A DNA stretch of 64,000 nucleotides from Cinnamomum chago (Eukaryota > Streptophyta > Magnoliopsida > Laurales > Lauraceae): contig CP142451.1 of the NCBI GenBank assembly GCA_038049695.1, positions 36,593,501 to 36,657,500 of the forward strand. The letters are read 5' to 3'. The notes beneath the pieces are model-generated. The model saw nothing but the letters and a program-made list of their open reading frames with translations. It had not been told where the DNA came from and searched no databases. Within the stretch, counting starts at the first letter, position 1; each line of letters starts with the position of its first letter. The translations under genes were made by a program, and so were the position numbers. Below are positions 31,288 to 47,260 of this stretch, piece by piece.

Positions 31288-31330
31288 GAGAGCAGCTATA
31301 TACACACTGCGTTTTGCTCTCCACCCTCTA
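31288..31330 (+). repeat. left terminal inverted repeat of MULE
   Basis: GAGAGCAGC at 31288, then about 12 extra bases, then CACTGCGTTTTGCTCTCC. This matches the complement of the right end with small differences. The TIR is short for a MULE. Confidence 0.7.
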
Positions 31331-31684
31331 CATCTCTTTACACAGTGGTCTTCAGTGCGGGATTTGCTCTCCACACTCTGTATTTTCCCTAAAACACCCA
31401 TTGCTGGACTTGATGAAACTACTCCCTACACTCTGCATTCTTCCCTCCCATTTCACGTTCTGAAAACCTCCCATTTCACGTTCGAAAGACCTCATCAGCA
31501 ACTACTTCTTTCGCTGCACCTCCACATCGAAGATGATCTCGACGATATAGCTAATTACGCCGAGCAATACAAAACTGTCTTTCGCTGCACCGTCTTCAGT
31601 GTGAGACCTCGTGTTCAGTCATCTCTCTCTTCTTACCTTCTTCATCAAACTGCATTACTGTGAATCGTCGACTTTCCAACCTCC

Positions 31685-32110
31685 GTGAGTGATTTCGATT
31701 TGTTTTAATTGATTAGAAATGTCTGCAGTTTTGTTTTAAGATCAAAGATTTGGTTTTTTCAAAGTTTTTTACCTCCCTCATTCACCTTTGCATCCCCCAT
31801 TACTCCATCCATCGTCATCGTTTTAGTGTGAGTAAGAAGAACCGGTTCGGCACTATGGGTCCGAAAACAGAGATTACTTTTGGCCTCGATGATCCGCATA
31901 TATGGAGTTATCTCGGTAGTATGGGGCCGAGAGGAAAAACTTTTCTCGGCGTCAATGAACCGAATAGAGTGTCATCTCTCAGCACTGTGTGTCCGATCAA
32001 AACCTAATTTCACGGCTCTGTAACGCCGAAACTATATTTTCCACACGGATAGTCAGGGCCGAATGGTCTGACTCAGTGCTGCACTATGTACTGATATTGT
32101 TTTTTTCCAG
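31685..32110 (+). other. leader intron of the PMD gene
   Basis: A donor AACCTCC|GTGAGT at 31684/31685 and an acceptor TTTTTTTCCAG| at 32110 bracket 426 bp just before the start codon at 32115. The upstream 5' UTR exon would begin near the left TIR. The intron contains the first 33-bp array. Inferred from splice signals only. Confidence 0.6.
31846..32062. repeat. 33-bp-period palindrome array 1 (PMD leader intron), 7 units
   Basis: Seven 19-nt units start at 31846, 31879, 31912, 31945, 31978, 32011 and 32044, that is every 33 bp without exception. Examples are TTCGGCACTATGGGTCCGA, CTCGGTAGTATGGGGCCGA and CACGGATAGTCAGGGCCGA. Each is an imperfect palindrome TCGGC-N8-GCCGA; the 14-bp spacers are not conserved. 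A decayed eighth unit lies in register at 32077. Confidence 0.95.
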
Positions 32111-32114
32111 ATAT

Positions 32115-34136
32115 ATGGATGTGCCGGGTACATCTAGGACTCGACCCACAGCGTCGAACAGGAGACTCCGTCAGAGGTTTGTTGCTGATGAGGTCGATGA
32201 TGACGAAGAAGTAGTTGAAGAACAACCCGAAGCCCAAGTGGAGACCGAAGTTTCCGAACCGGCAGAAGAAGTACGTCAACAAACTTCTTCTGCTGCTCAT
32301 TATAGGACTGGAGATATTCCCGGGGGGCCTACAAGTTTGAGCCTGCTACCTAGTTTCAGGACGCATATTGCTGCAAGTATTTGGCAGCAGCAGGTTTGTG
32401 TTTAATCTTGGTTAACATGTTTTAATCTGTGATGAAAATATTATTATCTTCACTAATTTGTTATTTATTTCGTTTTGCAGGAGAGACCGCCACTGAAATG
32501 CATAAGCCATGGCCAAAAAATCACTGAATGGGCATGGAATTCAGAGGGAAGGCAGAATACGGTTTTTAGTCGTCTCATTGGCCGTTCGGGGTTGGCTCCA
32601 TTGGTGGCGACATCTTATCGTTCCATCAACAAGAACATGATGTCAGCATTTGTGGAAAGATGGCAGCCTGAGACAAACACATTCCACATGCCTTTTGGTG
32701 AAATGACGATTACCCTTGATGACGTGGGCACCATTCTTGGGATCCCGGTCACTGGAAAATCTGTATCATTTGAGCAACTGTCATTTGAGCGATCAAAGAC
32801 ACTTGTAGAGCATGGTCTTGGGGTCACATCCCAGCAGGCACACGAAGAGTTAGTAGGTGTGCGGGGCTCGTCGGTTAGACTGGAGTGGCTGAAGGACCTA
32901 TACGGAGATGTGACTGATGCGGATCCAGAAGAGCACATTAGGCATGCCGCAAGAGCATATCTATTGTATCTCTTGGGATGTACACTCTTCGCAGACAAGA
33001 CCGGCACGAGGGTTCCAGTGGTCTATCTAAGGCTGCTAATGAACTTCGATGAGGCACGCACCTATGCTTGGGGAGCTGGTGCGCTTGCTCACCTATACCG
33101 ACAGTTGGGGTTTGCTACTCGGAGTGGTGTCAAGCAGATTGCAGGATACCTTACTCTACTAGAGGCATGGATTTACGAGCATTTCCCCAAGTGTAGGCCT
33201 CACCAAAACCGCACATACACAGAAAATTTACCGCGGGTGCATCGCTGGGTGCCACGAAGAGAGTCTGGGGACCAAATGTCCAACTTGCAGTCATTACGAG
33301 AGGCACTTGACGATCTTGGTGCCCATGAGGTAAGTTCTTATAAGTTATAAATTCCAAAAATCTTTAAATGAGTATCGTATAATTTAACGTATGCATTTGT
33401 CGATTAATGTTGCAGGTGGTGTGGGACCCCTACCGAGAGCATAGGGCAGAACACCCCTTTCACGAGGTTGCTTATTATACTGGCTGTATTAAGTGCATGG
33501 ACATCGTAGAACCATATCATCCTGATCGGGTGCTTAGGCAGTTTGGTAGGGTCCAACGCATTCCCCCCACTCCACTAGCTCCACAGCGCGCCAGTAGGGG
33601 TGCCACCGCAAATCAATATCGGATTGCTTACAATTACTTGGATCAAATATGGGAGAGGTGGCATAATCACGTCCTGTCTCCGATGGAGCGTGGTGTGCCT
33701 ACGTCACACCCATGGGACTGTGCACCCAATTATATGGAATGGTTCCTCCGAGTGTCGCATCCAATCATTCAGAACCCTGCACATCGCTCCACGTTTAATC
33801 CGCGTGTTCAAGATTCTATGGGCAGCTCTTCTATTGACCCACGTTTGGTACGATCCTTGACGAGCATATCTATCATTTTAAGTATAACCAACTGTACAAA
33901 CATTCTAATTTGTTCATTATGTGATTAATTAACAGAGCATCGTGAATGCCCAAAGTATTATTCAGCCTATTCTGAGGAGAGGCCATACTCTGAGTGTCCA
34001 AAATCCTGATGCCTTGTACACGGCCCTTGAGGACGTCAACAGGGTCCTAGATGGAGTCGATCCAGAAGATCTTGTTCATAGACCGACACGGAGCGAGGCA
34101 CGCACTTACAGCCGCAGGGCTAGACGTGGGGTCTAG
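32115..34136 (+). CDS. plant mobile domain (PMD, MAIN/MAIL-type) protein carried by the MULE, 586 aa
   Basis: Coding exons 32115-32393, 32481-33329, 33416-33847 and 33936-34136 total 1,761 bp; all junctions are phase 0 with GT-AG introns. The N-terminus has a basic stretch (RTRPTASNRRLRQR) and then an acidic one (EVDDDEEVVEEQPE). From about residue 94 it is a plant mobile domain (aminotransferase-like, PF10536 type): SAFVERWQPETNTFHMPFGE followed by MTITLDDVGTILGIPVTG, then LDLxxYLLYLLGCTLFADKTG-type and YRQLGFATR motifs. Host PMD proteins such as Arabidopsis MAIN and MAIL1 act in silencing and genome integrity. The second half (YHPDRVLRQFGRVQ) is the usual C-terminal half. No break is visible. 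Role in transposition or silencing control is inference. Confidence 0.9.
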
Positions 34137-35017
34137 GATGTGATATGTATTTGTTATGGTTGTAAACTGAATTTCAGCAATTTTTTTGGGTAACAGAGAT
34201 GTACCACATGTAAAACTTTATGGATTTAAATTTTTATGTAAAAATTTCTTATCACCTTTTGGCCACTTTATGGATATCTTTTTTTGTGCTTCATTTTGTA
34301 TTGATGTTTCTTTCTATGTACACAGCATTTATTTGAAATAGATAATTGTAAACTAGTTGTTTCAGGTTTGAAATAATGTAGCTCGGCGTCTCAGGCCCGA
34401 GAATATGTATTTTCCTCGGCGTCTCAGGGCCGACCGAATTCGGTCTACTCGGTGTCTCAGAGCCGACCGAATTCTATATACTCGGCGTCTCAGGGCCGAT
34501 AAAATGTTATCTGCTTGGCGTCTCAGTGCCGATTAGATTTGGTATACTCGGCCTCTCAGGGCCGACATTATAGTTTTAACTCAGCTTCTCAGAGCCGAGC
34601 AAAATATTATAACTCATATCAGGACCACTCAGTTGAAATTGTCGTAAGCTATATGCAATTAAGAGATATAGACTGTTCTTTTATAAAACAAAGTGAAAAT
34701 GTTCTCATCTTAATTTACAAAATGCTCAATTGCATTAAGCTCTTAAAATACATTGGATCCGCATTGACATCCTTATAAAATATAACAATCATTCTAGATC
34801 GATGGTTTCGCATGTGGCAACTGATGGACTTATAATCTCTCTGAAAAATTGGATCCGAGATTGATAAGCTGTATCCCAACCATCTGCAGAAGGGTGATGG
34901 TGACGAATCCAGTTAGTAGCAATAGGAGGAATTGGATGACCCTGTACGAGGAAAACCTACATATAAGAAGGAGTTCAAGTGAGTCACGGCATTTCAAGTA
35001 AAATAAAATTTGGGAAT
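34137..35017. other. convergent intergenic space of MULE
   Basis: Lies between the 3' ends of the PMD and transposase genes. It holds the second 33-bp array (34382-34598) and otherwise AT-rich 3' UTR-like sequence. Confidence 0.8.
34382..34598. repeat. 33-bp-period palindrome array 2 (between the 3' ends), 7 units
   Basis: Units start at 34382, 34415, 34448, 34481, 34514, 34547 and 34580, exactly 33 bp apart. The consensus is CTCGGCGTCTCAGGGCCGA; five of the seven units differ from it by 0-2 bases. A decayed eighth unit starts in register at 34613. This is the best conserved of the three arrays. Confidence 0.97.
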
Positions 35018-37934
35018 CTATGCATCTACTATTATCACCTGAACAAAGTGGTTTTGATTGACAAAACCGATTGCGATCTCCCGTCTAGCAACAGTAGGAA
35101 TAGGGACTGATCGAAGAGGAAGAAAAGTCAAGCATTGCTGATTTGACAAATGGTATAGGACAACGTTATAGTGCGAGGCAATTAGATGTCCCATGTCCGG
35201 CATCGTCATCCATCGATCATATGGAGGGCAATCCCCTTGGTACGATATAATATTGAGAAGTTCATCAACCCTTTGGTGTGATCCATATAGTTGTCTGTAG
35301 TGTTCTGCATGAGTCACCAACTCTCTAGAGAGATCTTTCCGTACATGTTGCCACGAATCCTCACCAAGTCCCATCAACCCTGCAATGGCTCTAAAGCCAC
35401 AATTGCCATCCGCATTGACATCTTTTACATGATGAATATAAGACCTTAAGCAATCTGGGAGTGTGTTAATATAAGTGGTTGGCTTCAAATTTCGGGTGCG
35501 GATGACCTTTTGCTTAGGAATCAGCTTCTTCACGGGCACCAAAGAGGCCCCACAGCTGACAATAGTCTCTTCCATCTTTAAGATAGGAGAGTAACTATCC
35601 TGAGCTGATTCGGCATATTCAAAGGAAGAGGGTTCACGTTTAGTAGAGTTGTGCAATTTCAATTTGGGGCGCCCCCGACATTTAGTTTTCGAATCTGGCT
35701 CGATCAGTGAGGTCGTCTCAGGCTTTGCAAGCTCCCTAAGTTTATCCAAGATCTGTAACTTCTTTCTCGAATCATAGCCCCTGAACTGTTCGACAATTAA
35801 ATCTATCTCTGGCATGCAATCCAAATTGACACTGGAGTCCTGGTCATAAGCGGTATGTAGTAAGTCAAGCTTGCGCCAATGCATATGCGTGCAATCTAAA
35901 GGAATAGGGCGACCAGCACTTATGTATTCTGCAATCTCATGAGCACAAGGTAGGCCATGTGTCTGTCGAAGTACACAGCCACAAGCATCTCTATCAATAC
36001 CGACGGATGATGCTCGTTTCGTCTCGGCCAAGATTTTCTCTAATGCACATATAGAAACATTCCCACGAAGTTCTTTGAATTCAGAAGGCTTGAAATTGTG
36101 TTGGACAACCGTCTTACTTTTTTCAAATGATGCTTTTATATCTGTATGTTGCAGCAACAATAGGTTGTGTATCTTCATCCATGAGTCTTCAAAAGTGCCC
36201 TGACTTGATCCAAGCTGCCGCTTCAGCTGTGCATGTGAACTCTCCACCCTGTTTGTAGTAGTGTTCCCAAGATGCATGACCTTGTCCGTCCAGGCAACCA
36301 CAAATCTATCCTTGTATGCATCTAACCAAGACACTCTAACATACTGAAGTGCTGCAGGATAGTTAATGAACTCCTTTAGAAATAAGTTGAATTGCAGATT
36401 GTAATGTTCCTCTGTGGATGAAGAGACCAACATGTTCCAGCTCATTATAAACCGGTCCCACTTTTCCTTCGTCTCAAACAACTTCTTGCATTTAGCCAAG
36501 ATATTTCTGTTGATATGCCATCTACATAAAAGATGTTTGGCGCCGGGGAAAACAATAGATATGGCGTTCATTAAAGCCATCTCTCTGTCAGTGACGATAA
36601 TGCTAGGAAGAACACCCTCGCCAATAACTTTGCGCAAAATACCCAATGCCCATGAGTAGCAATCTTCACGTTCATTCTGGAGATATACAATGCATACCGA
36701 AAAAGTCTTCTCTGTGGATGTAACCCCAACAATCTCCAATAAGGGCATTCGATACCGATTGGTCTTGTAGGTGCAGTCCATTATCAACACATGAGGAAAT
36801 GCACGCAAGAGGTCTACGCTGGTAGGGTGTGTGAAGAACAAGTCAATGACAGTATCTGTTGTAGGACATTTCCTATGCCACTCAATGTAACCATGCTCCG
36901 CCAATAATTTCAACAGTTGCTGCATCTGATTCCGTCCAGCCCTCTCCGCAACTTTATGCCTTTGACGTGCATTGTAAATGGTCTTCATTGTGCTTACATT
37001 TAACTCATTTCTATGTTTCAGTGTCACCAAGATATCCTTTGGCCGAACCATATTCTTGGACATGTCCACCAGCACTGAAGTTTCATCCTTTGTTAATCTC
37101 CCTGCAAATGAGTGCCCTTCCAGAAAGTCTGCAGCAGGATGATTATGCACACCACACACTACATGCAACATCCATTCCTCATTTGAGCCAACCACTTTAC
37201 CTTGTAACGTGAATGGGCATCCGCATTTTTTCGAACCAGTCTGCTTCAATTTCTTCCCACCAGTCCCGTCTTTAGTAATCCTCGTGTTTCTATAAGACCC
37301 ACTCCTCTCACACCCAAGGGTCAGCCTTGGTTTTTTATTTCTCCTGTTGGGCGCTGCTGATGTCTTAATCACAACAATGAAACCATTTCTCCTCCCAACA
37401 TCACGAGCCCAATTAATTAGGGATTCTCGACTAGTGAATATCTGCGCATAACAAAAAAAAAATCATATTGAACAAAGTGACTACATCAATTTAACTATCG
37501 AATGATTCATCTCGATTAATTACCTCTTCGGTGATAAACTTATTACTATAGTCGACCACACATTCCGAGCCAACCTTGCTGCATTCAGTAGGCGCATGAA
37601 ACTGCTATAGAACCAATTTTGTTAGAATAAGTAAATGACACAACTGCACGGCTCTGAATATCCGGTCAAAATTCAATTGTTCGGCCCTGCATGTCCGCAT
37701 ATTTTTCTTATTCTCGGCACTATTGTGCCGCGAAAAGTACCTATGTTCGGTCTTTCAGGGCCGTGAAAAATACCTCTGGTCGGCCCTGAAAGGCCGCGTA
37801 GAGGACATTCGGTCGGACATACAGGGCCGAGCAATTCGTCTCTTCCGATTTGCAAAGTTTGCGATGAATATGCTTACCTCGACGCTCCTAGAATGATCGG
37901 GAGACATCTTCTGCTTGTCCTTTTGCTCTTCCAT
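35018..37934 (-). CDS. MULE transposase with FAR1-type DNA-binding, SWIM, AT-hook-like and OTU domains, 852 aa
   Basis: Exons 37934-37878, 37601-37524 and 37441-35018, all phase 0 with GT-AG introns. The N-terminus holds VGSECVVDY and SLINWARDVGRRNGF, then a FAR1-like zinc region (KKCGCPF ... GVHNHPA, about 118-148). The catalytic core shows MDCTYKTN (Asp about 267), VTDREMAL (Asp about 330), CRWHINRN, and NRVESSHAQLK (Glu about 445). A SWIM zinc finger CGC...CAH is at about 532-546. An AT-hook-like CRGRPKLK is near 632. The C-terminal OTU cysteine-protease domain has ADGNCGFRA (Asp about 723, Cys about 726) and NHFVQV (His about 843). All catalytic residues are present. OTU-bearing MULE transposases are known; the function of the OTU part is not settled. 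Confidence 0.93.
37602..37877 (-). other. intron 1 of the transposase gene
   Basis: A 276-bp intron (GTCGAG|GTAAGC to CTATAGCAG|TTTC) almost filled by the third 33-bp array, mirroring the array in the PMD leader intron. Confidence 0.85.
37647..37830. repeat. 33-bp-period palindrome array 3 (transposase intron 1), 6 units
   Basis: Units start at 37647, 37680, 37713, 37746, 37779 and 37812, again exactly 33 bp apart. Examples are CTCGGCACTATTGTGCCGC, TTCGGTCTTTCAGGGCCGT and GTCGGACATACAGGGCCGA. Each keeps the TCGGN-N8-NCCGN core. A doubtful seventh unit lies in register at 37845. Confidence 0.95.
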
Positions 37935-38281
37935 TGATTAAGAATGCTAGCAAATTGAGTTTCAACTTTGAATGAAATCAAGATTAATGAGGTACAGTCA
38001 ATTGAGAATGAAGTGAGGATTCAAACCGAGAGAGAAGATGAAAGAGGGAGGAAGTAAAGATCAGTAAAATGCGGGAAGAAGTAGAACTTCATTTCATGAT
38101 GCAGAGGAGTGAATGGACGGAAGTGGAGAGGAGGAGTGAAACCCTTAACGCTGCACGTTCAGACGTCTCAAGTGGAGGGAAAATATGCAGTGTGCAGATA
38201 GCATTTCAAGTAGTGTGGGAGGGCTGAAGTTCATACATTTTGGTAAATTTACAAGTGGGCATTTTAGTCACAATCTATTGC

Positions 38282-38309
38282 AGTGTGAGGAGAGCAAAAT
38301 GCAGCACTC
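38282..38309 (-). repeat. right terminal inverted repeat of MULE
   Basis: The minus strand reads GAGTGCTGC then ATTTTGCTCTCC from 38309 inward, pairing with the left end. The 9-bp duplication follows at 38310-38318. Confidence 0.7.
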
Positions 38310-38419
38310 TTTTTTTAATTGTAGGTGTGTAAGGAAAAACCAATGGTGATGGTGCGTTCAGAATCACCCAAATGCAAATGTATCTTGCAATGCGGAATGA
38401 GTGACCGGAGAAGAAGAAG

Positions 38420-39433
38420 ATGAGAATATCCGCCGTCGGCCAAAACTCCTCCCCATTACCCTTTCCAGCTGCAGGAGGAGGAGGAGGAAGAAGAGGCAGA
38501 GAACAACGAATAGCACCACCTCCTCCTCTTCCCTCCTCCAGACCTCCTCTTCCTCCTCTAAAAGCCCAAACCAAAAGACAAAACCCTAAACAATTCCTCC
38601 TCCTCCACCAACAGCGGCAGCAGCAGCAGCAGAAACAAGACCCGGGACTCCTCTTCCGTCAAAAACTCCTCTACCTCGAACGCCACCTCCACATCGACTC
38701 CCTCAAAGCCCTCTCCCAAAACCCCCACCTCCGCTCCGTCTCCCTCGACTCCCTCCTCTCCGTCGAGCACTGCCTCTCCTCCTTCTCCATCGACCGCTCC
38801 GACATGGCCCGCATCTTCGGAATGCACCCTCAGCTCCTCACCTGCAACCCCCACCACCACCTCTACCCTGTCTTCCATTTCCTCCTCGACGACGCTGCCA
38901 TCCCTTTCCCCGACATCCGCAAATCTATCGCCCGCTGCCCCCGCCTCCTCGTCTCCAGCGTCCCCTCCCAGCTCCGCCCCACCCTCTACTTCCTCCGCCG
39001 CCTGGGTTTCGTCGCGCCCCACCATGCTATCACCTGCCAGACCACTCTCCTCCTCGTATCCAGCGTCGAATCGACGCTCATCCCCAAGCTTGATTACTTG
39101 CAGTCTCTGGGGTTTTCCTATCGAGAGGTTGTGAATATGGTTCTTAGGTCGCCGGGATTGCTTACTTTTAGTATTGAGAATAATTTCCGGCCGAAAGTTG
39201 ATTACTTGTTGAATGAAATGAAGGGGGAGGTCAGGGAGTTGAAGGATTTTCCTCAGTATTTCTCTTTTAGCTTGGAGGGGAAGATTAAGCGTCGCCACCG
39301 CCTGCTTGTGCAGCATGGGTTCTCAATGAGGCTGGCTGATATGCTTAAGGTTAGCGACGGTGAGTTTAATGATCGCCTGGTGGAAATGCGGCTAAGGAGG
39401 ATAGATGATGGGCAGGAAATTGGCTGCTTGTAG
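38420..39433 (+). CDS. mTERF-family protein, likely plastid-targeted, single exon, 337 aa
   Basis: Intronless frame. The N-terminus is basic, Gly/Pro/Ser-rich and poor in acidic residues (MRISAVGQNSSPLPF), like a transit peptide, followed by a Gln run (HQQRQQQQQKQ, about 63-73). From about residue 85 come helical mTERF repeats of roughly 30 residues with the recurring Pro/Leu pattern: IFGMHPQLLTC, SIARCPRLLVSSV, MVLRSPGLLTFSI and LKDFPQYFSFSLEG. Members bind organelle nucleic acid and act in transcription termination or RNA processing. Length fits the small plant plastid mTERFs. The start chosen is the first ATG of the frame; 101 bp separates it from the MULE duplication, so the promoter must lie in that stretch or inside the MULE. 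No break seen. Confidence 0.93.
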   Translation: MRISAVGQNSSPLPFPAAGGGGGRRGREQRIAPPPPLPSSRPPLPPLKAQTKRQNPKQFLLLHQQRQQQQQKQDPGLLFRQKLLYLERHLHIDSLKALSQNPHLRSVSLDSLLSVEHCLSSFSIDRSDMARIFGMHPQLLTCNPHHHLYPVFHFLLDDAAIPFPDIRKSIARCPRLLVSSVPSQLRPTLYFLRRLGFVAPHHAITCQTTLLLVSSVESTLIPKLDYLQSLGFSYREVVNMVLRSPGLLTFSIENNFRPKVDYLLNEMKGEVRELKDFPQYFSFSLEGKIKRRHRLLVQHGFSMRLADMLKVSDGEFNDRLVEMRLRRIDDGQEIGCL

Positions 39434-45217: not shown

Positions 45218-46206
45218 TCACTTCCTCTGTTTCATTCTCTTTAGGATCATCGGGAACACTTTCACATCACTTTCAGTCTCAATGAGGTGGATACGTTTTG
45301 GACATTCTGCTGCACGATGCCCTTGTTGTTTACAATTAAAACATGTGAGCTTATTTTGAACTTTGGGCTTGGTGAAAACTTTCTCCGATGATGCACTCAG
45401 TTTAGAACCTGTAATGGAGGAATTCTTCTGCATAACCCATTTAGCTGAATTAAGTTTTTGGGCTTGATGATGTGCAATTCCCTCAGCTTTGATAGCATGC
45501 TGAATAATCTCATCAATATTATCAAAATGCTTTAATGCGAGGATATCTTGAATGTCAAGTGTAAGCCCATTAAAGTATCTGTCAACTAAGACCTCATTAT
45601 CTTCATTCAAACCACAACGGGCTTGCATGGTCAGAAACTCCTTAGAATACTCAACAATTGTCTTAGATCCTTGTTTCAAGTATTGAAAATGTGAATGCAG
45701 ATTTATGGAGTAATTGACATGCAAGAATTTTTGCTTAAACAAAATTTTCATCTCGCCCACATGTCAACAGGGTCAATTCGTTGGTATCTCCTCTTCTTTT
45801 GCAACTCGGCCCACCATATCGCAACATAATTGCAAAAATGAGTTGCCACCAGAGTAATTTTATGACCATCCATCATTGGTTTATGTGCAAAAATATTTTC
45901 AATACACACTAACCAATCCAAGAACTCATCAGGCTTCAATTTCCCATCATATTCGGGAATCACGAGTTTAATACCCAAATTGCGATCAACATTTACGTGT
46001 GGGTCTCGTTGATTCCGAGTATGTCCACCATCATCCCGATGGTTATCTTCATGCCGATTAGTTTCCAAATTGGTTAATCGGGTCTCAATCCGTGCAAGAG
46101 TCTCTTGCATTTGAACCATCATGGCAGATAGTTGTCCAACGGTTCCCCTCAAATCATCATCATTGTGAGAGGAAGACTCTGCGTCAACTTGCTTCTTGAG
46201 AGGCAT
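45218..46206 (-). pseudogene. gag of gag-only element, one frameshift
   Basis: The start is ATG 46206 (MPLKKQVDAESSSHN), with a coiled coil (IETRLTNLETNRH), then the capsid motifs KLKPDEFLDWLVCIENIF and NYVAIWWAELQ. About 45750 one base is missing (DMWAR then stop); the shifted frame continues KILFKQKFLH, SKEFLTMQARCGLNE. It ends with a CCHC knuckle, CFNCKQQGHRAAECP. Otherwise open to 45218. Confidence 0.88.
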
Positions 46207-47260
46207 CTTTGGTTAATGCAAATTTAAAATTTTTGATTGACCTGATGTAGCTCTGCTATTCATGATCACGCTGGCGAAAACAGATAAAAAATTGGACGGT
46301 AGATGAGCCCGATATCGTTAGAAGAAATCTCAATCGTTGATCTTGGGCAAGGGCTGGATGGTTGGTTAGATGAGATACAATGATGATGTCAGCTTTGATG
46401 TGGTTGATAGGAGCACAACGGTTGTCCTGGCTGTGTTATTGCAGATGGGCTTGAAAATCAGACCTAGCCCAAATTCAAGTGGCCCAAAGTCAAGTTGAGC
46501 ACACACTTGCAAAGAAGCACACGTGTGAAACACCCTCATCCCTGCTTCGATCTGAGCGCCCGAAAGAAGAAGAAAAAGGGGCTAAAGCCCTTCTTTGTTG
46601 TTGCTTCCACGAAACAAAAGGGGAAGATGGAGCGAGCACTGGCGATGGAGCCGCGGGGAGGTGCTCGGCGATGACGATGGCGCTCGACGATGACGATGGT
46701 GCTCGACAAGGCTGATGATTACGATTGGATGATGCACGACAACGACGAGGAGGAGCAAGCGAATGGCAGGGAAGAGCTTCTAGAGTTGAACGACTTCGGT
46801 GCAGGCGAATGGCAGGGAAGAGCTTCTACGTTTCTCGTCCTCTTCTCCTTCTGCTTTCTTCTTTCTTCTTTCTTTCTCTTTCTGTTCGTTTTCTGGTTGC
46901 TGCGGATTTGGTGGAGAGAGGTAGGGGATGTTTTTTTTTTTTTTGGAAGGCAGGGAAAGTTTGGGGATTGACTGTGAAGGGTTATGGGTTCGGCGGTTTG
47001 GGTTATTGGCGGAAGGGCCTTGCGGATTAGGGTTTTGCGGTTTGGAGATTCTGGATGCGGGATGGGTTCGGGTATGGTGTTTCTGAAGTGGGTGGGTAAC
47101 TGGTTTGGTTGATTTAGTGGATTGGGATGGCAGATGGGAAGGGCGATTGGGGTTTGGCAGTGGGTCGAATGGTTATCGCAGGGGACTGACGAAGGGGCTG
47201 GGGATGGAGATAGGTAGGGGTGGGATAGGGGTAACATGCCGACGATCGAGGGATCATTTG
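46207..47260 (-). other. 1-kb leader of gag-only element, GC-richer
   Basis: Lies between gag and the primer site. It is richer in GC than the element and contains GACGATGG-type repeats (46650-46710) and a GAATGGCAGGGAAGAGCTTC repeat at 46761 and 46806. Long open frames on both strands show no domain. It may be captured host sequence. Confidence 0.45.

Follow-up and report, generated by a model that had tools for sequence, protein, structure and literature searches.

Why should one transposable element carry three arrays of a short palindrome, set at an exact 33-bp period in its non-coding DNA? The element is a Mutator-like element (MULE) of Cinnamomum chago, located in a 64,000-nt stretch of contig CP142451.1 (hereafter the window), and it encodes a transposase and a protein with a plant mobile domain (PMD). 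The arrays are probably binding platforms of the element's own PMD protein, which would act as a sequence-specific anti-silencing or element-activating factor similar to the VANC proteins of VANDAL transposons. This interpretation rests on recent mobility of the family, three arrays at fixed places, a conserved dyad in a conserved 33-bp register, a switch of motif in a distant relative, arrays in coding-free MULE-like elements, and a predicted PMD fold resembling VANC21. Feature coordinates are listed in Table 1; the gene structures are predictions from a splice model read from the sequence alone.

The 20 units (7, 7 and 6 in the left, middle and right arrays; motif starts at 31847+33n, 34383+33n and 37648+33n) follow one another at exactly 33 bp in 17/17 intervals, as described in the earlier note, and the extra units that it placed at 32077 (left array) and 34613 (middle array) are present in register, both strongly decayed. 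Under the splice model its locations also hold: the arrays occupy the predicted PMD leader intron, the space between the 3' ends of the convergent PMD and transposase genes, and predicted transposase intron 1. Their absence from exons was borne out by a motif scan, in which no site with two or fewer mismatches was found in the element outside the arrays.

TCGGC-N8-GCCGA is an idealised motif, matched exactly by three array units; these, all within the middle array, are the only perfect matches in the whole window. Chance expectations were obtained from 20 first-order Markov simulations of the window. Sites with at most one mismatch numbered 14, all inside arrays, against 0.25 expected per window. 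Two-mismatch sites (6, four of them inside arrays) and three-mismatch sites (69) were close to the 5.35 and 68.35 expected, and single weak matches are therefore uninformative. In a held-out test, using matrices built from two arrays, the units scored 8.4 to 26.9 bits and the best non-array sites of the three runs 9.6, 8.2 and 10.6 bits; the held-out array topped the window with the exception of one left-array unit (31847; 8.4, under its background site at 9.6). A scan of the element for imperfect dyads, made without the motif, gave 14 pairs at 33 bp against 4 for the runner-up spacing and a largest value of 4 in 20 simulated sequences; a perfect-arm scan (one pair at 33 bp, two at 35) was uninformative for this copy.

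Base by base, the right CCG is retained in 20/20 units and the left CGG in 18, 18 and 20. The consensus unit has two CG sites, as claimed earlier, and two CCG sites. The claim that spacing is conserved and spacers are not stood for the spacing only: linker identity among units is 0.36-0.46, but RRG is enriched before GCCGA, A at linker position +22 (17/20) and T at -5 (14/20). Nor do all sites face roughly one side of the helix, since at 10.5 bp per turn a 33-bp step makes 3.14 turns and so rotates each unit by about 51 degrees relative to the one before.

The strongest sign of an element-encoded reader that would co-evolve with its sites comes from sequence comparison with a distant MULE (C1:24038300-24054300), where the same places and the 33-bp period go with another dyad. 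By segment, its transposase is 51-56% and its PMD protein 44-60% identical to those of the window element. Tandem Repeats Finder detected 33-bp arrays at the middle and right places. The dyad of this element, CCGTGCA-N9-TGCACGG, is present in six units at the left place, five at the middle and three at the right, and 11/11 intervals are 33 bp. A second copy of this family (L069) has 6, 4 and 3 units (10/10 intervals of 33 bp), and at L068 six units of the same dyad (5/5 intervals of 33 bp) stand beside an interrupted related PMD gene. Genome-wide, this dyad occurs at 397 sites and its reversed control at 1; of 50 listed sites, spacings below 110 bp, read by eye, were 66 or 99 bp in 8/8 cases.

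The genome search scored 55 transposase matches, a lower bound, 30 of them with loci (the window's own included). Related copies, mostly young, keep the arrays and the period, a test named in the earlier note: in the middle and right arrays, 315/322 adjacent intervals across the 30 loci were 33 or 66 bp (192/194 without internal stops, 123/128 with stops). Where it was found, the middle array had 5 to 9 detected units; the locus of one copy (L011) lacks it. Of eighteen left ends retrieved, 17 could be aligned, and the left array is present in 16, with 95/95 intervals of 33 bp. By eye, 9-bp duplications flank each of the 16 other copies of which both ends were located, in one case with an offset of 2 nt. 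Judged from these sequences, the family is recently mobile and most copies are young; because it moved recently, array conservation among copies is partly common descent.

The sibling L035, with a transposase 91% identical to that of the window copy, has arrays at the same three places (13/13 intervals of 33 bp). The coding parts of the two copies were aligned by blastn, but most of the arrays were not; the left, middle and right arrays are 59, 53 and 64% identical. Between the two copies the transposase and PMD (of which exons 2 and 3 were compared) both had a dN/dS of 0.17, with dS of 0.27 and 0.30, respectively. When units of the right array were aligned in register, arm bases were kept at 83% and linker bases at 47%. 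Other copies include one with an internal deletion that retains the left and right arrays (L058), one with a four-unit middle array (L057) and one with all three arrays and a transposase reduced to its N-terminal part (L062). The loci L036 and L037 each contain an element with inverted ends (about 710 and 650 bp, respectively) that matched neither the PMD nor the transposase queries; the two carry 5 and 4 dyads, spaced 33 bp in 6/7 cases and 42 bp in one. Their terminal inverted repeat (TIR) agrees with that of L035 at 37/45 bases (L036 copy aligned). An 8-bp flanking repeat was found at L037; the only candidate at L036 was rejected, as it overlaps the TIR. Since these gene-free relatives keep the cis sites, a trans-acting reader is indicated.

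Exact TCGGC-N8-GCCGA sites numbered 1985 genome-wide against 99 for the control. Among 50 listed sites, spacings below 100 bp (by eye) were 33 or 66 bp in 14/16 cases and 42 and 60 bp in the other two. Fifteen loci, hand-picked, were opened around exact dyads; an array of at least three units in 33-bp register was present at six, all of them MULE copies or MULE-like. Some exact sites are explained by CTCGGCCGAG palindromes, apparently of another repeat, which were seen in L061 (near 1341-1493), L059 and L060; they lie, among other places, between two segments of the transposase in the distant MULE.

The predicted fold of the PMD family matches that of DNA-bound VANC21, and PMD is remotely similar to DUF1985. 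Homology of PMD and VANC is therefore probable, and the analogy drawn earlier with VANDAL/VANC is strengthened. In the window PMD protein itself DUF1985 scored 13.2 bits, below the Pfam cut-off of 35.1. DUF7745, also matched by 4/28 aligned PMD proteins (best E 3.8e-6), is on these matches a possible third member of the fold.

In the anti-silencing system VANDAL21/VANC21 of Arabidopsis, VANC21 acts locally on CG methylation (PMC5735166; PMC10398659). As the relevant passages of these sources describe it, the system resembles the window element in its MULE-type transposon (here with a MULE domain and a 9-bp target site duplication), in a non-transposase gene for a protein of the same predicted fold, in arrays of short motifs placed in introns, between genes and in non-coding terminal DNA, and in a faster change of these arrays than of coding sequence, with different motifs in related families. 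It has DUF1985 and a 9-mer, whereas PMD and a dyad are found here, together with a strict 33-bp period common to families with different motifs and with two genes, transposase and PMD. TIRs are degenerate or absent in VANDALs; those of the window element are present and divergent. Exact matches of the VANC21 and VANC6 motifs in the window element numbered 0. The PMD-C proteins MAIN/MAIL1 and MULE-captured PMDs share the Pfam domain of the window PMD; capture by MULEs is described, with anti-silencing offered as speculation (PMC5418596). The passages concerned name no DNA target, array or relation to the VANC fold, and the host proteins have a role in silencing.

If PMD is the binder, it would read the dyad as a dimer or through paired or tandem domains, and several copies would line up along each array; the 33 bp would stay constant while the letters change because the spacing would be dictated by the protein. 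At 3.14 turns per unit, the bound proteins would form a slowly turning helix. At bound arrays, PMD would remove or block silencing, much as VANC21 acts locally against CG methylation, so that the first introns, the 3' space shared by the two genes and the DNA near the promoters would stay unmethylated and open for transcription; the CG and CCG sites of the consensus unit would be possible targets of this contest. As PMD binding would act in trans, non-autonomous array-bearing relatives could also be reached. Two observations weigh slightly against this proposal. The host protein MAIL1 works without changes in DNA methylation, so that activation by a route other than demethylation is possible. 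Lone dyads also count against it: confinement to MULEs, at issue in the earlier note, held for the register arrays (6/6) but not for single dyads, which stood without a PMD or transposase match at 6 of the 15 opened loci. Our confidence falls somewhat short of even for the wider proposal that MULE PMDs form a second branch of VANC-fold anti-silencers across angiosperms, with a fixed 33-bp ruler and a free dyad, that MAIN/MAIL1 are VANC-fold DNA-binding proteins, and that PMD is a DNA reader.

Subterminal repeats of En/Spm and Ac serve assembly of the transposition complex. TnpA of En/Spm, also linked to demethylation, is likewise encoded by its element and has repeated sites close to the element ends, but it belongs to another superfamily and is another protein, and its sites are subterminal whereas those described here are also mid-element and intronic. 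It is unlikely that the present arrays serve such assembly, whether bound by the transposase or by PMD acting as a co-factor of transposition. The left and right arrays do lie about 0.5 kb from the nearest element end, TIR and array are retained in the two coding-free relatives, and the transposase carries a DNA-binding domain of the FAR1 type; however, the middle array is distant from both ends, the distant family likewise has one array between its two genes, and neither TIR contains the exact half-site (GCCGA or TCGGC). For this last reason the transposase is the less likely of the two binders named in the earlier note, and PMD, with its VANC21-like predicted fold, is favoured. Less probable still are sites of host transcription factors that would turn the first introns and the 3' space into enhancers. 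Array units make up most of both predicted first introns and the CCGA cores recall DRE-type sites, yet the relative with roughly half-identical proteins keeps the places and the period with another dyad, and an element-encoded, co-evolving binder thus fits better.

Two other accounts are very improbable. Every unit is an inverted repeat and two arrays lie in predicted introns, which suits RNA hairpins in the pre-mRNAs, also suggested earlier; this idea found no support, as the innermost arm pair (5-14) is kept in only 8/20 units, the four inner pairs in 20/80 (under the shuffle mean of 26.5), and the enriched linker A and T fall outside the hairpin. Neutral tandem duplication would make the arrays a young 33-bp satellite with decaying linkers, in keeping with the youth of the family and the varying unit number of the middle array. 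The linkers, dissimilar as they are, have nevertheless kept their length throughout; supposing descent of the units from one unit with equal linkers, zero indels have a probability of 3.5e-7 if the indel:substitution ratio is taken as 0.1 and of 5.9e-4 if it is taken as 0.05, and places and period persist in the distant MULE, where the motif differs.

A 2021 review calls PMD a domain of unknown function and adds that transposable elements may use PMD proteins for counter-silencing (PMC8616336). In the passages concerned, VANC21 and the plant mobile domain appear as separate topics in both PMC8616336 and PMC6419827. DUF1985 and plant mobile domain were not found together in the literature search, although the paper behind the structure 9lnj could state the relation. 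VANC21 with a crystal structure and DNA was not found in literature since 2023; unpublished VANC-DNA structures are mentioned in part of a 2026 meeting report (PMC12859917). A VANC21-like predicted fold and putative sites in the encoding element give PMD a testable function. The MULE may mark and activate its own copies similarly to the VANC21 system, in which case sequence-specific anti-silencing would extend beyond VANDALs, and two dyads with one period would be ready protein/target pairs for specificity and epigenome-editing studies.

Table 1. Features of the MULE and its arrays (window coordinates).
Feature	Position	Strand	Basis
MULE, 7,022 bp	31288..38309	.	Target site duplication, divergent TIRs, open transposase and PMD genes under splice model, ends of other copies
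Left 9-bp target site duplication, TTTTTTTAA	31279..31287	.	Identical 9-mer at 38310-38318
Right 9-bp target site duplication, TTTTTTTAA	38310..38318	.	Identical to left 9-mer
Left TIR, divergent	31288..31464	+	Local alignment
Right TIR, divergent	38158..38309	-	Local alignment; end fixed by target site duplication
Left array, 7 units of 33 bp	31846..32076	+	Motif counts, matrix scoring
Middle array, 7 units, convergent intergenic space	34382..34612	+	Motif counts, matrix scoring
Right array, 6 units	37647..37844	.	Motif counts, matrix scoring
Predicted PMD leader intron, 283 bp (231 bp left array)	31828..32110	+	GTGAGTAAG donor, TTTTTTTCCAG acceptor
PMD gene, 586 aa	32115..34136	+	Splice model, PF10536
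Predicted PMD exons	32115-32393, 32481-33329, 33416-33847, 33936-34136	+	Splice model
Transposase gene, 852 aa	35018..37934	-	Splice model, MULE and FAR1 Pfam domains
Predicted transposase exons	37878-37934, 37524-37601, 35018-37441	-	Splice model
Predicted transposase intron 1, 276 bp (~199 bp right array)	37602..37877	-	Splice model

The PMD domain (PF10536) was detected with E 1.5e-76 (258.3 bits, cut-off 34.9), and the closest protein match is from Cinnamomum micranthum (83% identity across 62% of the protein). The transposase matched the Pfam domains MULE (E 2.8e-27) and FAR1 (E 2.5e-6); by its DGNC and NHF motifs its C-terminus (window 35018-35500) presumably resembles an OTU cysteine protease, and in Pfam it matched Otubain only, with E 0.22. 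Local alignment of the TIRs (31305-31464 with 38158-38345) scored 48; the highest of 50 shuffles reached 38. The MULE stands some 0.1 kb upstream of an mTERF open frame (PF02536, window 38405-39433) and perhaps affects the promoter of that frame. A retrotransposon gag and zinc-knuckle fragment is present at window 45218-46212.
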